Source: Brevinematales bacterium
Lineage (GTDB): Bacteria > Spirochaetota > Brevinematia > DTOW01
Reading direction: 5' to 3'
Assembly: GCA_026415355.1 (NCBI GenBank)
Contig: JAOAHF010000006.1
Coordinates: 1-64,000 of the forward strand
DNA: 64,000 nucleotides
Shown here one piece after another: positions 4,843-47,082 of this stretch (position 1 is the stretch's first letter; the number at the start of each line of letters is the position of its first letter). Under the pieces are notes generated by a model. It saw only the letters and a program-made list of their open reading frames with translations, did no database searches and was not told where the DNA came from. A program made the position numbers and the translations under genes.

Positions 4843-4980
4843 ATGAAGGTCAAAGCTTCAGTAAAACCTATCTGCGAAAAGTGTAAAGTAATAAAGAGAA
4901 AAGGTAGAATCATGGTAATATGTGAAAACCCTAAACATAAACAAAGGCAAAAAGGAGGTAGAATTTCATGGCACGTATAG
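4843..4980 (+). CDS. rpmJ: 50S ribosomal protein L36 (bL36), C-terminally extended
   Basis: The small ORF begins [15 protein letters not shown] and carries the bL36 zinc pattern CEKC...[10 protein letters not shown]. The usual length is 37-38 residues; here the frame runs on for 45 residues, ending GGRISWHV. The extension arises because the 3' end overlaps rpsM by 13 bp and contains the AAGGAGG ribosome site of rpsM, so the two genes are probably translationally coupled. Zinc ligands are the two cysteines of CEKC plus the later Cys and His. Confidence 0.93.
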
Positions 4981-5339
4981 CAGGTGTTGAACTACCCAAC
5001 AAAAGGCTTTTAGTAGCATTGAGATATATCTTCGGCATAGGTAAGTCTCTTGCTTATAGTATTCCAAAAAAGTTAGGGATAGATCCTAATAAGAAAGTTT
5101 CTGAACTATCTGAAGAAGAGTTTAACAAATTAAAAAACGAAATTGAAAAGAATTATAAACTTGAAGGAGATTTGAGAACTGAAATCAGGTTAAACATAAA
5201 GAGATTAATAGATATAGGATGTTATAGAGGACAAAGGCATAAAAAAGGTTTACCTGTAAGAGGACAAAGAACCAGAACAAATGCTAGAACTAGAAAAGGT
5301 CCCAGACCTCATAGACTAGGTAAGAAAACTAAGAAATAA
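4968..5339 (+). CDS. rpsM: 30S ribosomal protein S13 (uS13)
   Basis: The 123-residue protein starts [13 protein letters not shown] and ends with the basic tail [13 protein letters not shown], both diagnostic for uS13, which sits in the head of the small subunit and contacts P-site tRNA and the B1 bridge. It follows rpmJ with a 13-bp overlap and a ribosome site inside rpmJ. The usual downstream partners rpsK, rpsD, rpoA and rplQ are absent; a DUF4340-like gene follows after 13 bp. Confidence 0.98.
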
Positions 5340-5352
5340 AAGGAATTATAAA

Positions 5353-6327
5353 ATGAGGGGAAAGGCTCTTTTAATACTCTCCCTCTCAGCTATCTTACTA
5401 GGGTTGGTTGTTTTTTTCTTAATAATCGACAGAGGAGAAGTCAAGGTAATAAAAAAAAGGGACTACCTTGTAGGGAAATTCTCTTCTGATGATATTTCAT
5501 ATCTAGGGATATATTTCAGAGATTACTACGACAGAACAAAAGAATATGAGTACTTTATTATCAAATCTAACAATCTTTGGTTTGTATCATATTCAAACAT
5601 CATCGATAGAGTAGAATATAAACTTGCAAATTTCGTAGCAAACATAATAGGAGATATTGAAAATCTAGGAAGTATCTCATCAAACGAAGTTGAAGATATA
5701 ATAAACAGTTTTGGATTTTCAAGACCAAATGCTAGAATAACTTTTGTGGCAAATAACATAACAAATGAAATACTTGTCGGAAATCTTGCACCAACAAAAG
5801 ATTACTACTATGTCACCCTTAACGGAAATTACGAAACTATTTATCTTGTATATGCCTATAAAATCGATAACATACTTAAGTATCCAGAAGAAATAAGAGA
5901 CAAAAACATATTCACCCATGAATGGACTAACATTACTGGTATTGAATATAAACCAATAAGTTTTCCAAAGATTATCTTTACTAACAAAAATAACAAGTGG
6001 TTCTCGGTAATACCTATTGAAAAAGAAGTTGACAGTATATTTATTGAAAATGAATTTCTAAAAAATCTAAGGAGCTTGGCAATAGAACACTTCATTGACC
6101 AAGACAACAAATTGTACAAAAATCTTATTTTAAAAACAAATACCCCAATCTCACAGATTAAGCTTTACAATGGTTATAATGAAATGACACTTATGGTTTT
6201 GGATAAGATAAAAACAAATTTTTACTGCTACGATACCATCAGAAAAGTTATATTTGCGATCGATTACGAAAGTAGCAAGAGTTTGTTTGACGCACAGTAT
6301 GAGAGGTTTGTTAAAATTACAAACTAA
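5353..6327 (+). CDS. DUF4340-like membrane-anchored protein
   Basis: A 324-residue protein with one N-terminal transmembrane anchor (residues about 5-25), then a long extracytoplasmic region. The pattern ISSNEVEDIINSFGFSRP followed by ITNEILVGNLAP and YYVTLNG matches the DUF4340 repeat, in which a pair of beta-rich units is built around a 'G...P...YYV' core. DUF4340 proteins are often encoded beside gliding-type ABC transporters, but none is present here. It starts 13 bp after rpsM and ends 12 bp before manC, so it may be in the rpmJ-rpsM transcript. The function is unknown. Confidence 0.6.
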   Translation: MRGKALLILSLSAILLGLVVFFLIIDRGEVKVIKKRDYLVGKFSSDDISYLGIYFRDYYDRTKEYEYFIIKSNNLWFVSYSNIIDRVEYKLANFVANIIGDIENLGSISSNEVEDIINSFGFSRPNARITFVANNITNEILVGNLAPTKDYYYVTLNGNYETIYLVYAYKIDNILKYPEEIRDKNIFTHEWTNITGIEYKPISFPKIIFTNKNNKWFSVIPIEKEVDSIFIENEFLKNLRSLAIEHFIDQDNKLYKNLILKTNTPISQIKLYNGYNEMTLMVLDKIKTNFYCYDTIRKVIFAIDYESSKSLFDAQYERFVKITN

Positions 6328-6339
6328 GAGGTTCGATAT

Positions 6340-7419
6340 ATGCGGTGTGTTGTAATAATGGCAGGTGGCCGTGGAGAAAGGTTTTGGCCTAAAAGTAGGA
6401 GGAATTATCCGAAACAATTTCTTAACCTAATTGGCGATAAATCAATGCTCCAGTATGCATACGAAAGAGCTCTTGACATTGTTGACAAGAATAGGATATT
6501 TATAGTTACATCATCTGACCTAGTTAACCTTGTGGAAGAACAAATACCCAAAATACCCCAAAGTAACATAATAATTGAACCATTACCTAAAAACACTGCA
6601 CCTGCTATAGGATTAGCAGCAACTTACATAAGAAAATACTTTGGTGACTACACAATGTTCGTCATGCCTTCAGATCACTATGTAGATGATCTGAACAAAT
6701 TTTACGACGTTGTTGAAGCGGGATTTGAGGCAGCCGAAAAATACCTATCTCTAATCACATTAGGTATAAAACCTTCAAGACCTGACACCGGTTACGGATA
6801 TATAGAGGTTGGGAATATAATAGATACCTTCTTCAGCAAGAATATATTTGAAGTCAAGAGATTTGTTGAGAAACCTAACCACGAAAAAGCTGTTGAATAT
6901 CTAAGTAAGGGTAAATTCTTTTGGAATAGTGGAATGTTTATATGGAAGGTATCAACAATACTTGAAGAAATATCAAAGCACATGCCAAACCTATGGGAAG
7001 CTCTTACAATCATCGAAGATGCTATAGGTAAAGACTACGAAAGCGATGTTATAATTGAGGAGTTCGAAAAAATAGAGGGTATATCAATTGACTATGGAGT
7101 TATGGAAAAAAGTAAATCTGTTTTATGCGTTAAGAGTGACTTTATATGGGATGATATCGGATCTTGGTCAGCTGTTTATAGACTCAACGATAAAGATGAT
7201 AACGGAAATGTAATCGAAGGCAACGTTATATCTCATAATGTCAAAAACTCCTTAATAATAGGAGAAAACGATGGGGTTATCGCAGTCAGTTCACTAGAAG
7301 ATATGATAATAATCAAAGAAGGAGATAGTATATTAATAACCAAAAAATCTGAAGATCAAACTATAAGAGAACTTGTTAAAATGATGAAAAACCAAGATAA
7401 GTATTCAAAATATCTATGA
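6340..7419 (+). CDS. manC: Mannose-1-phosphate guanylyltransferase
   Basis: The enzyme makes GDP-mannose from mannose-1-phosphate and GTP. The nucleotidyltransferase signature GGRGERFWPKSR is at about residues 9-20, followed by YPKQFLNL, EPLPKNTAPAI, MPSDHYV, the substrate motif VEKP and FFWNSGMF, all in family order. At 359 residues it is the single-function form, lacking the C-terminal phosphomannose isomerase cupin domain of the bifunctional enzymes. It overlaps ruvC by 4 bp (ATGA). GDP-mannose would feed glycan or lipoglycan synthesis. Confidence 0.95.
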   Translation: MRCVVIMAGGRGERFWPKSRRNYPKQFLNLIGDKSMLQYAYERALDIVDKNRIFIVTSSDLVNLVEEQIPKIPQSNIIIEPLPKNTAPAIGLAATYIRKYFGDYTMFVMPSDHYVDDLNKFYDVVEAGFEAAEKYLSLITLGIKPSRPDTGYGYIEVGNIIDTFFSKNIFEVKRFVEKPNHEKAVEYLSKGKFFWNSGMFIWKVSTILEEISKHMPNLWEALTIIEDAIGKDYESDVIIEEFEKIEGISIDYGVMEKSKSVLCVKSDFIWDDIGSWSAVYRLNDKDDNGNVIEGNVISHNVKNSLIIGENDGVIAVSSLEDMIIIKEGDSILITKKSEDQTIRELVKMMKNQDKYSKYL

Positions 7420-20806: not shown

Positions 20807-21250
20807 CTAATTCCTATTATCCTTAATAGTCCTAATCACATATCTTGACAAAATCAATAAAAAAACCAAAACTTGTATAGAGAAAATAACTGCTATAAAT
20901 AGTGAAATCTTATCTATAAACAAGCTTTGGGGTTTTTGGGAATCAATAATAACGTTTCCCTTGTAATCTTCAAACCTAAAAACATACTCTCCTTCTTCAA
21001 CATCTATACCCAATCCTTTTGTTATTGATTTTCTGTACTCCACATCATTTTTCAACATTTCCAACTGTTTCTTCTTATCTTGATTCATTTTTTCCAAACG
21101 GACAACCTGCTCTTTAAGATATGCTATTTCTCTCTCTTTCTTTATAGTATCGATAATACCACCTCTTGAGAAAACAAAAGATATCGAAACTACCAAAGCT
21201 AAGATTGAAACAGATATTACAACTATTGAAAACATTATTTCACTTTTCAT
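20807..21250 (-). CDS. FtsB/DivIC-like coiled-coil membrane protein
   Basis: A 147-residue protein with an N-terminal membrane segment (about 5-28), a coiled coil (about 35-70, rich in KEQVVRLEKMNQDKK) and then YRKSITKGLGIDVEEGEYVFRF, which matches the 'LGyvkpgE.vyrf' end of FtsB/DivIC septum proteins. Unlike those, it has a second hydrophobic segment at about 112-136 and a short basic tail. It sits 35 bp after rimM in the same operon. Divisome membership is an inference from architecture. Confidence 0.6.
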   Translation of the reverse strand: MKSEIMFSIVVISVSILALVVSISFVFSRGGIIDTIKKEREIAYLKEQVVRLEKMNQDKKKQLEMLKNDVEYRKSITKGLGIDVEEGEYVFRFEDYKGNVIIDSQKPQSLFIDKISLFIAVIFSIQVLVFLLILSRYVIRTIKDNRN

Positions 21251-21285: not shown

Positions 21286-21792
21286 CTATTTAAGATAATC
21301 CTTCTCATCTGAAAAAACTTTTGTTAATTTTATGATTTTTGACTCTACATCAACTTTCTCAACATATCTAGGTGTAAATGGTATGATAAAAGAAGAAAAT
21401 TCTAAGAAGAATAATCTACCATCTGTGAGTATCCTACTGATTTTACCTAGATTATCTCCATTATATTCATAGACTACACATTCTTCTAAGTCTGCTATGT
21501 AGTACTGATTATCTTTGAGCTTAGGTAGGTTTTCGTATTTTGTATAGATAAATTTTCCTTTAAGGAAATCTAACAATTCTGGTCTGACATTCTCAACTCT
21601 GAAAATAACATTCTCTGAAGAGAAAAAATCAAAAGATAGATGCAATTCCTTAAAACCTGTTAGCGTTTTTATGTAGAACTCTTTAACTTCCTTAAGGTAG
21701 TACTTATCATCTACAAGAGGCTCTACTTTTATTTGGTTATCTAACTTAAATTTATCAACTATCTTACCTATTTCCACAAATCTATTACTCAT
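21286..21792 (-). CDS. rimM: Ribosome maturation factor RimM
   Basis: RimM assists assembly of the 30S head domain. At 168 residues the length is normal. The N-terminal RimM domain starts FVEIGKIVDKFKLDNQIKVEP, and the C-terminal PRC-barrel shows QYYIADLEECVVY, DNLGKISRI and IIPFTPRYVEKVD. The usual partners rpsP, trmD and rplS are absent; here it lies between a PIG-V-like gene and an FtsB-like gene. Confidence 0.9.
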   Translation of the reverse strand: MSNRFVEIGKIVDKFKLDNQIKVEPLVDDKYYLKEVKEFYIKTLTGFKELHLSFDFFSSENVIFRVENVRPELLDFLKGKFIYTKYENLPKLKDNQYYIADLEECVVYEYNGDNLGKISRILTDGRLFFLEFSSFIIPFTPRYVEKVDVESKIIKLTKVFSDEKDYLK

Positions 21793-21857: not shown

Positions 21858-23006
21858 TCAACCAACCCATAGAGTATTAGAATACATATAAAACCAGTAC
21901 AAAAGGCTAATCGAAGACAAGAAAATTGTAAAGTAGAGAATAACGAAACTCAACCTACTAGGTTTGGGGATAAGCATTCCCAGTGCTAGGAATGTAGTAG
22001 GTATTGAAAAGACATACCTACCCAAACTTCTTAAATCACCATCTTGTGTAAAGAAAACAATAGCTACATGAGATATCAAAATTCCTATTGAGAACCAAAA
22101 TTCAAACTTTTTCGGTACAAACTCTGTCTCTCCAGACTTTAAATACTTAAGCACTTTATACACCAAGTATATCGATATAAATATTCCCATATACAATGCT
22201 ATTATATCCATAGTTGTACCTTTGGCCCACAGATTATGGAGGTATAAACCAACTTTTTTATCCCACAAAGACTGAACTGTGAACGGTTTAAAAAAATCCC
22301 CAGTTAAATACCACGCATACACTCCAAAAATCATATATCCCACTAATACTCCTGCGACTGACACTATTCCCAAAATAAACTCTTCTCTACTTGTTTCTTT
22401 TCTGATAATATACATCAATGACAAAGCAAGTAAGACCGAAAAGATGAATTGTAACAATACAGGTCTTGTAAGGCTTATGAGAATTGAAAGTATAAAGATT
22501 AATGGAACTTTTAAGAACAAACTTGGTTTAGCTGAAGATAAAAAGTAGATGTAAATAATAAGCAATAAAGAAAAAAGACTCTCAGTATATCCTAGGTAAT
22601 GAAAAATTATCATTGGATTTGTAAGGTATAGCAGAATAAATATGAGATACAATTTTTCATGGAGTAGTTTCTTGAAGACAACAACAGTTACTGGAATAGA
22701 AACCAAAAATACCGAAATAGACAAAACTACAGAAATCTTTTCCAAAGGTAGAGGTAATAAGATACCAAAAACTTTGGTAAACAATGGATATAATGGATAA
22801 TAAGCCCATTCTGCAGGATTTGAGTATCCATCTTTGGCAATACCGATGTAATATGGTGTATCTCCAAATCCAGGGTTTGGATCCGATACAAACATTTTTT
22901 GATAAACATTCGGAAAGAGCAAAAAAGCCAGAAGTAAAATAGCAAGACACACAAACAATGGCATGAAGTATTGCAATATTAACTCTTTTGTGTAGGATAT
23001 ATACAT
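21858..23006 (-). CDS. PIG-V-like mannosyltransferase, integral membrane
   Basis: A 382-residue polytopic protein with about nine to ten membrane segments. The first extracytoplasmic loop has GDTPYYIGIAKDGY followed by WAYYPLYPL, the form seen in PIG-V and related GT-C glycosyltransferases, where an acidic residue in loop 1 is catalytic. Such enzymes use lipid-linked sugars at the outer face of the inner membrane. The start ATG follows a GGTGG site. It heads an operon with rimM and the FtsB-like gene. The acceptor is unknown. Confidence 0.65.
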   Translation of the reverse strand: MYISYTKELILQYFMPLFVCLAILLLAFLLFPNVYQKMFVSDPNPGFGDTPYYIGIAKDGYSNPAEWAYYPLYPLFTKVFGILLPLPLEKISVVLSISVFLVSIPVTVVVFKKLLHEKLYLIFILLYLTNPMIIFHYLGYTESLFSLLLIIYIYFLSSAKPSLFLKVPLIFILSILISLTRPVLLQFIFSVLLALSLMYIIRKETSREEFILGIVSVAGVLVGYMIFGVYAWYLTGDFFKPFTVQSLWDKKVGLYLHNLWAKGTTMDIIALYMGIFISIYLVYKVLKYLKSGETEFVPKKFEFWFSIGILISHVAIVFFTQDGDLRSLGRYVFSIPTTFLALGMLIPKPSRLSFVILYFTIFLSSISLLYWFYMYSNTLWVG

Positions 23007-23092
23007 ATACCACCAAGACTCTTACATAGAATTCAAACGATGGTTATACATAACAAATATAAAACATACTACCAAAAGTTTTCCATTTGTCA

Positions 23093-23101
23093 TTATACAC
23101 A
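23093..23101 (+). other. DnaA-box-like nonamer
   Basis: TTATACACA fits the TTATNCACA DnaA-box consensus. A one-mismatch copy, TTATACATA, lies at 23044-23052 inside the palindrome GTTATACATAAC (23043-23054). Both are in the non-coding gap between the PIG-V-like gene and the CRISPR array. Two sites alone do not make an origin; they matter because of the nearby base-composition switch. Confidence 0.3.
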
Positions 23102-23187
23102 AACTCAAAGATTAAAGTCTGACAAACACCTCAATACCTAACGCCAAGAAATGGTAAACGAAAATTCAAAACACTCTCGTATGTACA

Positions 23188-24509
23188 GTTTCAATCCCTG
23201 AAAGGGTAGGTAAAAACATTTCGGAGATGATATTCAGATATTCTTCTCTTTGAGGGTTTCAATCCCTGAAAGGGTAGGTAAAAACCTCCAAGGATAGCAT
23301 CTATGCTTGTGGTCATAGCTTTTGCAGTTTCAATCCCTGAAAGGGTAGGTAAAAACTGGTTGCTAGCAATTTCAGCAAGCCATCCTTGGTAATATGTTTC
23401 AATCCCTGAAAGGGTAGGTAAAAACCTCCATCTTCTTACATCGCTTTCAGGACTTCTTGCAGTAGTTTCAATCCCTGAAAGGGTAGGTAAAAACGTGTAT
23501 ATGAGCGAGGAGAAGGATATCGTTTATTTCGAACCCGGTTTCAATCCCTGAAAGGGTAGGTAAAAACTTGTAGAAAAATATTTGAAAAAAGAAAAAGTTT
23601 ACGTGTTTCAATCCCTGAAAGGGTAGGTAAAAACTTTTTAGAGAAGGCCATTCAAAAAAGAATTTCGTATAGTTTCAATCCCTGAAAGGGTAGGTAAAAA
23701 CCTCAAGCGCATTAGCAACGACGCGTATGATAGGCTGTTTCAATCCCTGAAAGGGTAGGTAAAAACAGGTATGTGTATGAAGTTGCAAATGAAGCTCAAG
23801 GTTGTTTCAATCCCTGAAAGGGTAGGTAAAAACTCTCATCTTGAAGGATGAGACGCAGCTTGGAAATATCGTTTCAATCCCTGAAAGGGTAGGTAAAAAC
23901 TCATAATTCGTGCATGGGTCTATTCGATTTCTTGGCGTTTCAATCCCTGAAAGGGTAGGTAAAAACCTGCATTTTTTAACGCAACTTCTAACTGTTTTAA
24001 TACTACGTTTCAATCCCTGAAAGGGTAGGTAAAAACATGAAAGATAGAATAGTCTATCTAAGGATAGACGAAAGTTTCAATCCCTGAAAGGGTAGGTAAA
24101 AACACCTTGTTTTTAGAATGTCTATTGGATGCTCATTGAAAGTTTCAATCCCTGAAAGGGTAGGTAAAAACCAAAGTTCGGATCAAGCGAAAAGATCCGA
24201 AGACCAGGTTTCAATCCCTGAAAGGGTAGGTAAAAACCGATGCTAAAGAGGAAGAGATGAAGCCTATGAAGTATATCAGTTTCAATCCCTGAAAGGGTAG
24301 GTAAAAACTAGGATTGCGTAGATAGTTTTCTATCTTCAAGCCATGTTTCAATCCCTGAAAGGGTAGGTAAAAACTAAGCTTTGTAATTACTTTGGCATAC
24401 AGTCCTTACCAGTTTCAATCCCTGAAAGGGTAGGTAAAAACAGGAAAGTCTATCTTGCCGTTTACATGAACTACTACGGGTTTCAATCCCTGAAAGGGTA
24501 GGTAAAAAC
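23188..24509 (-). CRISPR. CRISPR array, 20 identical 30-nt repeats, 19 spacers
   Basis: Repeats start at 23188, 23256, 23327, 23396, 23465, 23538, 23605, 23672, 23737, 23804, 23871, 23937, 24007, 24074, 24142, 24208, 24279, 24345, 24412 and 24480. Spacers are 35-43 nt. On the + strand each repeat begins GTTTCAATCCC and ends GGTAGGTAAAAAC; the centre can form CCCT/AGGG with a GAA loop. Read on the minus strand it ends ATTGAAAC, the usual 8-nt crRNA 5' handle of type I-B and type III systems in thermophiles. Transcription is therefore inferred to run leftward with the leader at 24510-24900. All 20 copies look identical, so no decayed end repeat marks the distal end. No cas gene is in the window. 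Several spacers contain perfect short hairpins. Confidence 0.98.
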
Positions 24510-24900
24510 CATAACATAAATACAAAATATTTTGGTATTCAATTTGATATGTTTTAGAGCGACTAATAATTACAAAAGTATTATAAACATTGAGATTACA
24601 ACTTGCAACATTTTTTTCTGGAAACCTCCGATGCTGCAAAAACCCCTGGGGGTTTCCGGAAACGAACTTTTGGAGATACCAAAACATTTTGGTATCTGGA
24701 GATACGGTAAAAATATGGTTTTTAGACTACTTTGAATAGTCAAATATAATTATACTAATCTAACTGGACGCAAAAATTTTTCAGACACTCAAAAAAGGTG
24801 GGGGGTTTCCAGAAAAATTCAGATAATTGTTTGGGTTATTAGTTGAAATTCGGTTATCAATTTTCTTGAGATAACGAGTGATTTTTTTGATAATTATATT
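24510..24900. promoter_or_regulatory. Probable CRISPR leader / repeat-rich intergenic region
   Basis: This 391-bp gap has no convincing gene. It holds a 22-bp near-palindrome at 24675-24696 (arms GATACCAAAA and TTTTGGTATC, centre CA) flanked by TGGAGATAC on both sides; a further TTTTGGTAT half site at 24530; two copies of GGGGGTTTCC at 24648 and 24801; CTGGAAACC at 24618, which is complementary to the GGTTTCCAG at 24804; and GTTATC/GATAAC arms at 24853 and 24870. A leader on this side follows from the inferred array orientation. The same region could instead serve replication, since + strand composition changes around here. Confidence 0.55.
24675..24696. repeat. 22-bp palindrome in the CRISPR leader region
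   Basis: Two perfect 10-bp arms, GATACCAAAA and TTTTGGTATC, are separated by the dinucleotide CA. The direct repeat TGGAGATAC overlaps the left arm (24671) and follows the right arm. The form suggests a dimeric regulator site or a cruciform rather than a terminator, because no T-run follows. Confidence 0.75.
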
Positions 24901-25701
24901 GTGATGGTTGGAGACTTGGCACATTATAGAATAGTTTCAAATAGAACTAATTTATACGTTTTTATTAATTTGCAAACAGTTAAAGATTACGACGATTTCA
25001 AAAATATATTCTTTGTTAAATGGTTTATGAATGACTCTAGTTTTACATTTCAGAAAATTTGGAATTTTTTTTATACGACTCCAATTCTTGAGGCTTGGTG
25101 GAAGAGTGATAACATATATTCGGAGTTTATTGTAAAGGATAATAAGTTCAAGAAAATCTACTCCAAAAATAACATTGACCTTTTCATAAGTGAAAGATTA
25201 ATAACTTTAGATATTTTACCTTCGCATGTGTTTGATTTTTTGGGTATTTATTCATCTGAAGATCTTAGAATTTATGATAAGAATGCTACTCTTGCTAAGA
25301 AGGAGCTTCTGTTTTGTAAGTCTTGTTATAGACATATGTTTCCTAGTGAAATTATTGAGCAATTTAGTTATCATGAAGGGATATGTTGGTATTGTGTGAA
25401 TATTTTATCACCTTATGATAGAAGGCGTATCGAAACACCGTATCTGTTTAGAAAGAGAATAGTAGAAACTTGGAAATCCCTTAGTATAATCCAAAGGGAA
25501 CAGTTGTTATTTGGAATACTTAGAGAGTTTAGAAAACCAAAAAAAATCTCAGATGTGCATTACTTGAAACTTTTATCAAGACAGCTAGCAGAAGTAGATG
25601 ATGTTTACAAACTTTCAGGTGTGTCGAAGCAGGAATTAGAAACACTTGTGTATAAATTAGATGTTGATTATTTTATTAAGTGGTGGGAGAATATAAAATG
25701 A
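24901..25701 (+). CDS. Unrecognised protein with CxxC-x19-CxxC zinc motif
   Basis: A 266-residue soluble protein that I do not recognise. Residues 1-130 are mixed alpha/beta with many aromatic residues; C139, C142, C162 and C165 (FCKSCYRHM...ICWYC) form a probable zinc ribbon, and the C-terminal 90 residues are helical and basic (LFRKRIVETWKSL), which suggests nucleic-acid binding. The first codons are GTG ATG; an ATG at 24904 is an alternative start. Its stop codon overlaps the start of the next gene (ATGA). It is the first gene after the CRISPR leader region. No similarity to a Cas family is apparent. Confidence 0.6.
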   Translation: MMVGDLAHYRIVSNRTNLYVFINLQTVKDYDDFKNIFFVKWFMNDSSFTFQKIWNFFYTTPILEAWWKSDNIYSEFIVKDNKFKKIYSKNNIDLFISERLITLDILPSHVFDFLGIYSSEDLRIYDKNATLAKKELLFCKSCYRHMFPSEIIEQFSYHEGICWYCVNILSPYDRRRIETPYLFRKRIVETWKSLSIIQREQLLFGILREFRKPKKISDVHYLKLLSRQLAEVDDVYKLSGVSKQELETLVYKLDVDYFIKWWENIK

Positions 25702-26072
25702 AAAATAAGAATTTTAATGATCACAGTAAAAAGGAAAGGCGTAAACTGCTAAACCAAAAAAATAAGTTTGTTAAAAGTTATGTAAGTTTTTCAGTTGATA
25801 CTAGTGTAGTGATAGGTGTTTGCCCTATCTGTGGTGAGAATTGTTACAAAGATCCTTCAAATATTGTTATTTCTGATCATACTTTCCATTTTGATTGTGT
25901 TGTTAATTTTATAAAAAGTAATATCAGAATTGACGAGGATAAAAAGCTTTACTATACTGGATCAAACACTTTTGGAATAGTTTGGGAGAGTAAAACAAGT
26001 AGAAGAGTAGAGTTGATAAAAAGACTAGATCTCAGGGAGATACTTAAAGAGTATGTTTCAGAAAATATTTAG
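25698..26072 (+). CDS. Unrecognised small zinc-finger-like protein
   Basis: A 124-residue protein starting MKNKNFND at the ATG overlapping the upstream stop; a GGGAG lies upstream. Potential zinc ligands are C42, C45 and C49 (CPICGENC) and H61, H64 and C67 (DHTFHFDC), a treble-clef or RING-like layout. The N-terminus is strongly basic (SKKERRKLLNQKNK). The zinc motif shared in kind with the upstream neighbour, and the coupling to it, suggest joint function. Function is unknown. The 3' end overlaps the HD-GYP gene by 20 bp. Confidence 0.6.
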   Translation: MKNKNFNDHSKKERRKLLNQKNKFVKSYVSFSVDTSVVIGVCPICGENCYKDPSNIVISDHTFHFDCVVNFIKSNIRIDEDKKLYYTGSNTFGIVWESKTSRRVELIKRLDLREILKEYVSENI

Positions 26073-27552
26073 TTTGACAAATATATTCATGAATATTTTG
26101 AAGGAGAAGAATGATATTTTCGATGTAGATTTTCGAGAAATTTGTACATATGCTTTAGGTAAAGATATACCTTTTGGAGTTTATATAGAAACCCGTAAAG
26201 GTTTTTTGTCAATATTTAAGTCGGAGAGATCACTCCTTCTTAAGGATGTTATCCTTGAGAGTGAAATATCTAAAAAACTTAAATCTTTTGACGATGGAAG
26301 TAGTTGGTATTATTTTGATTTATTACTTAGTAGTAGAAAGCTACATAAAAAAGTATTAGTGAGGATTTTCGTTAATTCTAGTAACTTGTCTGACCAAGAG
26401 TTAAGTATGATAGAGAGTGTTGTTAGTAATTTTTATTCTTTTCAGGATTTATATGATAAAAACTATGTTTTTGGCGAACTTATTGGAATATTGAAAGAGA
26501 CTACTGAAGTTGAAGATATAAATGAGGTTATAGAGAAAATTACAAGTATAACTAAGAAACTTTTGGATGTACAAGCTTCTTCAATACTTTTAAGAGATGA
26601 GAAAAGTAATGATTTGTACTTTAAAGTTGTTGATAGTGAAAAGAGTGATAGAATAAAAGAAATAAGAGTACCAATAGATAAAGGTGTAGCTGGTTATACT
26701 GTTAGAACTGGTAAATCTCTCATAGTTAATGATGTTAGTAATCACCCAGATTTCTATAGTGGAGTTGATGAAAAGAGTGGTTTTATTACTAAATCTTTAA
26801 TGTCTGTTCCTATAAGACCTCTTGGGAAAATAATAGGTGTTATTGAGGTAATAAATAAACTTAAGGAAACAGAATTTTCAGATGATGATCTTAGAATATT
26901 AGAAACTATTAGTGAAGTCTTGGGAATCAATATAATAAATTCTCTTCTCTATGAAAGGTTAAACAGTATATCGAGTAGTATAATAAAGTCTCTTATAACT
27001 GCTTTGGAAGCTAGGGATGAATATACAAAAGGACACTCATTTAGGGTTCAAATATACTCCATTAAACTCGGTAATGCTTTGAGATTTTCTCAAAAAAGGA
27101 TAAAACAACTTGAATTATCGGCAATACTTCATGATATAGGTAAGATAGGAGTACCTGATAGTATTTTGAGAAAACCTGGTACCTTAACTGATGAAGAGTT
27201 TGAAGTAATAAAAAAGCATCCAGTGATAGGATACAATATACTTAGTTCTATAGATGGGTTGGATGAAGTTTTGGAGGGTATAAAATACCATCATGAAAGA
27301 TTTGATGGTAAAGGATACCCTGATGGACTAAAAGGTCAAGAAATACCTATATTTGCTAGAATAATCTCTATAGCGGATACTTTGGATGCTATGACTTCAG
27401 ATAGGCCTTATAGAAAAGGATTGCCTTTCGAATTTGCGTTAGAAGAAATTAAAAAATCAAAGGGTACACAGCTCGACCCTGAATTAGTTGATATATTTAT
27501 AAATTCTTTCACGAGTTTAGAGGAAATCTCTTCTATAATTAAAGAAATGTAA
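26053..27552 (+). CDS. GAF-HD-GYP cyclic-di-GMP phosphodiesterase-like protein
   Basis: A 499-residue protein: an N-terminal region of about 120 residues that I do not recognise, a GAF sensor domain (about 145-300, ending GVIEVINKL), and a full HD-GYP domain (about 315-490). Active-site motifs are intact: HDIGKIG from H360, HHERFDGKGYPDG from H413, and IADTLDAMTSDRPYR. It should hydrolyse c-di-GMP in response to a ligand on GAF. No membrane segment is seen, so it is cytoplasmic. The start at 26053 overlaps the upstream gene; an ATG at 26089 is the alternative. Confidence 0.92.
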   Translation: MFQKIFSLTNIFMNILKEKNDIFDVDFREICTYALGKDIPFGVYIETRKGFLSIFKSERSLLLKDVILESEISKKLKSFDDGSSWYYFDLLLSSRKLHKKVLVRIFVNSSNLSDQELSMIESVVSNFYSFQDLYDKNYVFGELIGILKETTEVEDINEVIEKITSITKKLLDVQASSILLRDEKSNDLYFKVVDSEKSDRIKEIRVPIDKGVAGYTVRTGKSLIVNDVSNHPDFYSGVDEKSGFITKSLMSVPIRPLGKIIGVIEVINKLKETEFSDDDLRILETISEVLGINIINSLLYERLNSISSSIIKSLITALEARDEYTKGHSFRVQIYSIKLGNALRFSQKRIKQLELSAILHDIGKIGVPDSILRKPGTLTDEEFEVIKKHPVIGYNILSSIDGLDEVLEGIKYHHERFDGKGYPDGLKGQEIPIFARIISIADTLDAMTSDRPYRKGLPFEFALEEIKKSKGTQLDPELVDIFINSFTSLEEISSIIKEM

Positions 27553-45820: not shown

Positions 45821-46098
45821 GTTCTACCACCTTAGATTAATATTATTTATACCTTTATACGCAAAATTCATCTTCTATAAAACTTGACCTTGTTAATAAA
45901 ACAATTTTTAATTATTATTCACCTGTCTATAGTAGAGTACTAAGAGTATTTTCGAGAGGGCAATTGTAGAAACATCTTGGTTTGGGTGAAAACTATTTGA
46001 AAAAATAATAAAGTTTACAGAATTATTATGGTTAATTTGACATGGAGTTGGAAAATTGTTATATTTACATACCCCGTATAGAGTATGGAGGATGTTTT

Positions 46099-47082
46099 AT
46101 GGATATTAAGTTGGGGACTTTTGTAAAGCCTAGTAAATCTGAAATTAGTGAAGATCACATATATGATCTTATAATAATAGGTGGTGGAGTTGCTGGTTTT
46201 TCTGCTGGTTTGTATGCTTCTAGAGCAAAGTTAGATACTATACTTGTTGAAAAGTTAGGACCTGGGGGGCAGATTGCAACTACGGATTTAGTTGAAAATT
46301 ATCCTGGTATTCCTGAAATAAACGGATATGAGCTTTCTATTAGAATTGAAGAGCAAGCAAAAAAGCACGGTCTTAATGTTTTGTTGGATGAAGTTATTTC
46401 GGTTCATCTTGGGGATGAAGTAAAAAGAGTAAATCTTGCTAGCGGTAAAACTTTGAAATCTTATTCTGTTATAATATCTACTGGGGCTAATTATAAGAAG
46501 TTAGGAGTTCCGGGTGAAGATAAGTTTTTAGGTAAAGGGGTTTCTTTTTGTGCTACTTGTGACGGTGCCTTTTTTAAGGACAAGGATATTGTTATAGTTG
46601 GCGGTGGTAATACTGCTTTAGATGAAGGGCTTTTCTTGACTAGATTTGTAAAAAGTATAACTTTAATACACAGAAGGGATACTCTAAGAGCTGAAAAAAT
46701 ATTACAAGAAAGAGCGTTTAATCATCCTAAATTCAAATTTATCTGGAATAGTGTTGTTGAAGAGATACTTGGAAACGATAGAGTTGAAGCAGTTAGGATA
46801 AAGAATCTAGTAAACGGAGAGGAGAAGATTTTAGAGACAGAAGGTGTTTTTGTTTTTATAGGTATGGTTCCAAATACGTCTATTTTTACTGAAATTGAGA
46901 AGAATGAAAATGGTTATATCAAGGTTAATTTGTATGATATGAGTACTAATATACCGGGTGTTTTTGCTGCTGGTGATTGTGTTGATAAATTCCTAAGACA
47001 GGCAATAACTGCTGCAGGAGAAGGAGCAATTGCAGCTGTTGCCGCCGAGAAGTATATTGAAAAAATAAAACATCAAGTATAA
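46099..47082 (+). CDS. trxB: Thioredoxin reductase
   Basis: An FAD/NADPH enzyme that reduces thioredoxin. The start ATG at 46099 (MDIKLG) has a GGAGG site, better than the ORF start at 46042. The protein is 328 residues; N-terminal FAD motif GGGVAGFSAGLYASRA, active disulfide CATC (C151 and C154), NADPH motif VGGGNTALDEGL and the end ...VFAAGDCVDKFLRQAITAAGEG. It presumably reduces the TrxA encoded at 36436. Confidence 0.96.
   Translation: MDIKLGTFVKPSKSEISEDHIYDLIIIGGGVAGFSAGLYASRAKLDTILVEKLGPGGQIATTDLVENYPGIPEINGYELSIRIEEQAKKHGLNVLLDEVISVHLGDEVKRVNLASGKTLKSYSVIISTGANYKKLGVPGEDKFLGKGVSFCATCDGAFFKDKDIVIVGGGNTALDEGLFLTRFVKSITLIHRRDTLRAEKILQERAFNHPKFKFIWNSVVEEILGNDRVEAVRIKNLVNGEEKILETEGVFVFIGMVPNTSIFTEIEKNENGYIKVNLYDMSTNIPGVFAAGDCVDKFLRQAITAAGEGAIAAVAAEKYIEKIKHQV

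Follow-up and report, generated by a model that had tools for sequence, protein, structure and literature searches.

CRISPR loci were found at sites of chromosomal inversion in a genomic study of the Thermotogales (DeBoy et al. 2006, J Bacteriol 188:2364), as that work is cited in two later papers (PMC5052741, PMC5637354). The locus described here resembles those CRISPR-associated large inversions in that a CRISPR array lies at what is probably an inversion site, and it differs in the kind of evidence: the Thermotogales association comes from a genomic study, whereas here the event is deduced from the base composition of the strands and from forks in the assembly of a single draft genome, in which the reciprocal junction was not seen. 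With bacterial oriC regions that carry parAB/parS and DnaA boxes the locus shares the minus-to-plus polarity of its skew switch, but it has no box cluster, parS, par genes or AT-rich region, and the box cluster, parS and par genes of this genome lie on another contig (C3). Like the repeat-induced contig chimeras of short-read de Bruijn assemblies, it shows exact 77-bp overlaps with contig ends at the array repeat and the leader; unlike them, unique spacers anchor its array halves, and a sign change is left however the known flanks are paired.

The window, that is, the whole stretch of DNA analysed, comprises bases 1–64,000 of contig C6 (106.6 kb), which belongs to a draft genome of 80 contigs and 1.76 Mb. 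Genome-wide statements refer to the 1.71 Mb contained in contigs C1–C33.

Strand composition on the two sides of the CRISPR array

Genes were called with a simple codon model, and the third codon positions of each gene were scored for leading- versus lagging-type composition as a log-likelihood ratio (LLR), using a model trained on ten other contigs with C6 excluded. The leading-type third-position frequencies in the training contigs were G 0.17, C 0.07, T 0.44 and A 0.32, and the lagging type was approximately the mirror image. The + strand was C/A-rich at third positions in 20 of the 21 genes to the left of 23,006 (LLR sum −615), comprising all 11 plus-strand genes and nine of the ten minus-strand genes. 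To the right of 24,901 it was G/T-rich in every window gene (31/31, LLR +1406), on both coding strands, and from 24,901 to the end of C6 in 62 of 63 genes (LLR +3029). None of 20,000 random-sign trials matched the observed contrast. These scores bear out the first-pass annotation, which had described an A/C bias on the left and a T/G bias on the right, extending also inside minus-strand genes, from base counts in 60-nt lines; all four of the quoted counts were exact on recount.

The minimum of the per-gene cumulative score lies between genes 21858–23006 and 24901–25701, in the gap with the CRISPR array. The non-coding strip at 23,007–23,187 (181 bp) has a GC skew of −0.40 and a TA skew of −0.29, and the non-coding 74 bp past the leader (24,827–24,900) have values of +0.56 and +0.32, respectively. 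Since these flanking strips still carry opposite signs, the sign change is confined to 23,188–24,826, in agreement with its earlier placement by eye inside the array and its leader. Raw cumulative skew was rejected as a locator of the switch: its extrema in the window, a GC minimum at 15.4 kb and a TA minimum at 27.5 kb, mislead, as codon usage obscures the replication signal. The cumulative extremum that had been expected at the array was found with the third-position score but not with the raw GC and TA curves, and the switch is one of third positions and non-coding DNA. It is thus confirmed that the two halves of the window carry opposite replication-strand signatures, which meet inside the CRISPR array. 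The arms and the features around the junction are listed below.

1–23006, no strand: left arm; + strand C/A-rich at third codon positions (lagging-type), at least 23 kb long and reaching the contig start
18050–20767, + strand: mutS (MutS domains I–V)
20807–21250, − strand: gene for a DivIC-like septum protein
21286–21792, − strand: gene for a PRC-barrel protein, probably RimM-like to judge by its length; its own skew sign is unclear
21858–23006, − strand: gene for a 382-aa predicted membrane protein (hydrophobic sequence, no Pfam family), the last gene of the left arm
23007–23187, no strand: non-coding strip at the leader-distal array end, still C/A-rich
23188–24509, − strand: CRISPR array with 20 identical 30-bp repeats and 19 spacers
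23871–23947, − strand: assembly-graph fork; these 77 bp, made up of one repeat, spacer 11 and a further 11 bp, match the beginning of C16 without a difference, after which C16 diverges
23901–23936, no strand: spacer 11, the ninth counted from the leader; shared with the beginning of C16
24510–24826, − strand: leader, with related copies in C20, C30 and C2
24743–24819, + strand: assembly-graph fork of 77 bp, with the same sequence as the opening 77 bp of C20
24827–64000, no strand: right arm; + strand G/T-rich at third positions, extending to the contig end at 106.6 kb
24901–27552, + strand: first operon of the right arm, with two orphan ORFs and a gene for a GAF/HD-GYP protein; G/T-rich

The array is probably read from the right, on the − strand, as suggested by the repeat end (ATTGAAAC) and the position of the leader. 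No self-targeting spacer was found, none of the array's spacers matching its own genome. In the left part of the window (4968–7419), rpsM is followed by genes for a DUF4340 protein and a sugar nucleotidyltransferase, not by rpsK-rpsD-rpoA, that is, the ribosomal operon is split.

Candidate origin and terminus on other contigs

Most large contigs have one sign throughout. When at least 15 kb of clear sign was demanded on both sides, only three large switches were found in 1.71 Mb: those on C6 and C3 (119.0 kb), which are sharp, run from minus to plus, and that on C5, which is diffuse (about 46–54 kb), from plus to minus. Islands of near-zero or weak strand bias were also observed within strongly biased contigs (C3 40–80 kb, C7 45–85 kb, C12 30–55 kb and C17 5–20 kb); these may be foreign DNA or recent inversions whose composition is re-equilibrating.

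Contig C3 carries parA and parB at 102.6–104.3 kb, and the genome's only two good parS sites are located beside parB at 104.07 and 104.29 kb. In addition, nine of the 75 TGTGCAT boxes of the genome are found within 256 bp at C3:124,860–125,115, the next best cluster having two; several of the nine are spaced 11 bp apart, and the cluster falls inside an 867-bp non-coding gap (C3:124,591–125,457; L053:4591–5457). A comparable cluster of ten TGTGCAT boxes, three of which match the DnaA-box consensus TTATGCACA (perfect DnaA boxes), is present in another genus of the family (G004:C61:1041–1557), in a 0.7-kb non-coding gap at a minus-to-plus switch, the genes bounding this gap scoring −0.146 and +0.144 per codon. 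All eight relatives tried have parB with an adjacent parS. The search for clusters of the canonical DnaA box TTATCCACA gave none that was convincing. On C3, 5.8 kb separate the composition switch (119.0 kb) from the box cluster (124.9 kb), as would result from a small local inversion beside the origin, and the assignment of oriC to C3 near 119–125 kb is strong but not perfect. A candidate terminus is located on C5 near 46–54 kb, where a dif-like palindrome, ATTTCCGATAATAAATATTATGTTAACT (46,059–46,086, locus L061), sits at the edge of the plus-to-minus switch, between genes that end at 46,022 and start at 46,166. The chromosomal start-of-replication site thus appears to lie on another contig than that of the window, and the window switch comes in addition, with C3 already accounting for one origin and C5 for one terminus. 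A palindrome of the ACCAAAATATTTTGGT type recurs in the leader (window 24516–24546 and 24680–24700), in the candidate oriC (L053:4790–5290) and in other intergenic regions.

The first-pass annotation had proposed that the window switch marks an origin. Its turn from minus to plus in GC and TA skew on the + strand, its sharpness and the long non-coding tract are those of an origin, but the remaining features make an origin here, chromosomal or of a second replicon, very improbable. Between 22.5 and 25.5 kb there is no cluster of DnaA boxes, only one TTWTNCACA and no TGTGCAT being present, with a single TTATACACA at 23,093, and no parS, parA/parB or rep gene was found near the switch. An AT-rich unwinding region is likewise absent from the array, because the array is richer in G+C (0.35–0.36) than its surroundings (about 0.31–0.33). 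The sole box cluster of the genome lies with parAB/parS on C3, and a cluster of the same kind coincides with a skew switch in the other genus. The right flank is not an old origin neighbour, because its operon (24901–27552), which occupies other places in two relatives, lies within a region of uniform skew in the relative G001. The polarity of the switch and its place in the array and leader stand, and its role as an origin marker is not supported, the origin features being on C3. An objection raised together with that proposal, that ribosomal genes would then be on the lagging strand, has little weight, since the genome shows almost no overall gene-strand preference; the accompanying remark that dnaA is not near was correct, dnaA being near neither the window switch nor the C3 candidate. 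The adjacency of mutS and parB in the MAG RSWP19 was considered as an origin hint and rejected: mutS there adjoins parA-parB with an IS transposase in between (L121:6554–10408), an arrangement limited to that genome and absent in seven other relatives.

Assembly forks and the formation of the junction

An assembly graph with k=77 was deduced, because many contig ends share exactly 77 bp. Two such forks are found at the junction, as in chimeric contigs. The first 77 bp of C16 correspond to window positions 23,871–23,947 reversed, and C16 enters the array at the repeat 23,871–23,900; C16 is opposite in sign to the left arm of the window, and its reverse complement has the sign of the right arm. 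The 30-bp repeat of the array is found on two further contigs, where C13 ends on its right and where C16 begins on its left. At the other side, copies of the leader open C20 (98% over 84 bp) and end C30 (98% over 99 bp, beside cas2-cas1-cas4), and a degenerate copy is present in C2 (74%). In the orientation of the window array, the distal flank is minus for the left part of the window and plus for C16 and C13, and the leader flanks of the window (right side), C20 and C30 are all plus. The leader of C30 was considered as the missing C/A-rich exit and rejected, its sign being G/T-rich like that of the other leader copies. The path from C16 through the shared half to the right arm has no sign change; only the path from the left arm switches sign. 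At the end of C13 (66,625–66,730, locus L065) the last array spacer is tandemly duplicated, which is a graph loop, and some contig ends (C6, C11, C15 and C19) bear a sequence resembling a transposase adapter (CTGTCTCTTATACACATCT). Forty-one contigs (C33–C73) are pure homopolymer, junk left in the draft.

The explanation that we favour, giving it slightly better than an even chance, is that the window switch reflects a rearrangement within the CRISPR array, a junction that arose by inversion between arrays and is not a chromosomal origin, the true origin being on C3 and the terminus on C5. The several arrays with the same 30-bp repeat would serve as recombination substrate: recombination between two of them in opposite orientation on one replication arm would invert the intervening DNA and join a leader-distal half-array with a C/A-rich flank to a leader-proximal half-array with a G/T-rich flank, so that the array would become the point where the bias turns. 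The array that opens C16 is the likely partner; it meets the window array at the single repeat 23,871–23,900, and the unrearranged order would be C16, the shared half and the right arm, all G/T-rich. If only part of the population carried such an exchange, the graph would show a fork at a single repeat like that of C16, and the best reading is an inversion between arrays that is either fixed or mixed in the population. The sign change is located in the array, further arrays with the same repeat are found at the ends of C13 and C16, and the C16 fork would give the uninverted order as an alternative path; the relatives are too rearranged for comparison. The model predicts a partner with a plus distal flank, which C16 or C13 fits, and a minus leader flank. 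Against it, the flanking DNA is G/T-rich at each of the three leader copies where a flank can be read, and the reciprocal junction, with a G/T-rich distal flank and a C/A-rich leader flank, is not in any contig. To close the circular map, a further plus-to-minus switch is required, which must be hidden in a contig gap. The data show directly the window switch and the two others, parS and parB, the box clusters, the forks and the sharing of spacer 11; we infer that recombination between arrays made the junction, and likewise the direction in which it acted.

The main rival is an artefact of assembly or strain mixture, in which the array of the left arm was joined to the leader half of another array through a shared spacer or leader and no single chromosome carries the switch. 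We consider it unlikely, with a weight well short of that of the inversion. The forks in the array and in the leader, each an exact match of 77 bp, point to it, as do the contigs that end at the same repeat elsewhere, the leader of C30 that has no neighbour, the alternative path from C16 through the shared half to the right arm, which lacks a sign change, and the quality of the draft itself, with at least 41 of its 80 contigs homopolymer junk. However, the assembler did not guess blindly at the step from spacer 10 through the 30-bp repeat to spacer 11, which at k=77 must exist in the reads, and no fork separates the left arm from ten unique distal spacers. Moreover, since every readable leader flank is G/T-rich, one minus-to-plus junction remains however the three known distal flanks are matched with the three known leader exits. 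Two stable arrays having the nine youngest spacers and the leader in common would also give the forks, and the sign change would remain. An old inversion or translocation with breakpoints near the array that was not made by CRISPR recombination but, for instance, through mobile elements or illegitimate joining, and for which the array was simply a place that tolerates such events, is improbable, more so than the artefact. Such events would fit a group in which most positions are reshuffled between species, mostly without CRISPR arrays, and C3 shows that switches can occur in plain intergenic DNA; but the window breakpoint is resolved no further than the array plus leader, the only repeated DNA there, and the C16 fork falls exactly on a repeat.

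The inversion between arrays may further be present in both orientations at once in the population. In that case the arrays would be live inversion hot spots that flip large segments against the replication fork, and array halves would be swapped between loci, one leader half serving two sets of old spacers. This part of the interpretation is put forward tentatively and is rather doubtful.

Gene order in relatives and implications

Relatives were found by a MutS search; one of them is a MAG labelled 'Spirochaetes bacterium', and the organism is accordingly regarded as a low-G+C spirochaete. Synteny with them across the window junction and the C3 switch was rejected as a means of dating the junction, the order being too reshuffled. 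In two of them (G003:C22 and G001:C92; L122–L125) gene order is almost wholly reshuffled within the genus and strand bias is still very strong. Rearrangements are common in the genus, as its gene order is heavily reshuffled between species.

A sharp skew switch seen on both coding strands, the textbook signature of an origin, can thus be a rearrangement junction, and CRISPR arrays may be a substrate for recombination. The oriC, parS and dif candidates given here are testable, and they belong to a poorly known family of spirochaetes in which gene order is strongly reshuffled and strand bias is very strong.
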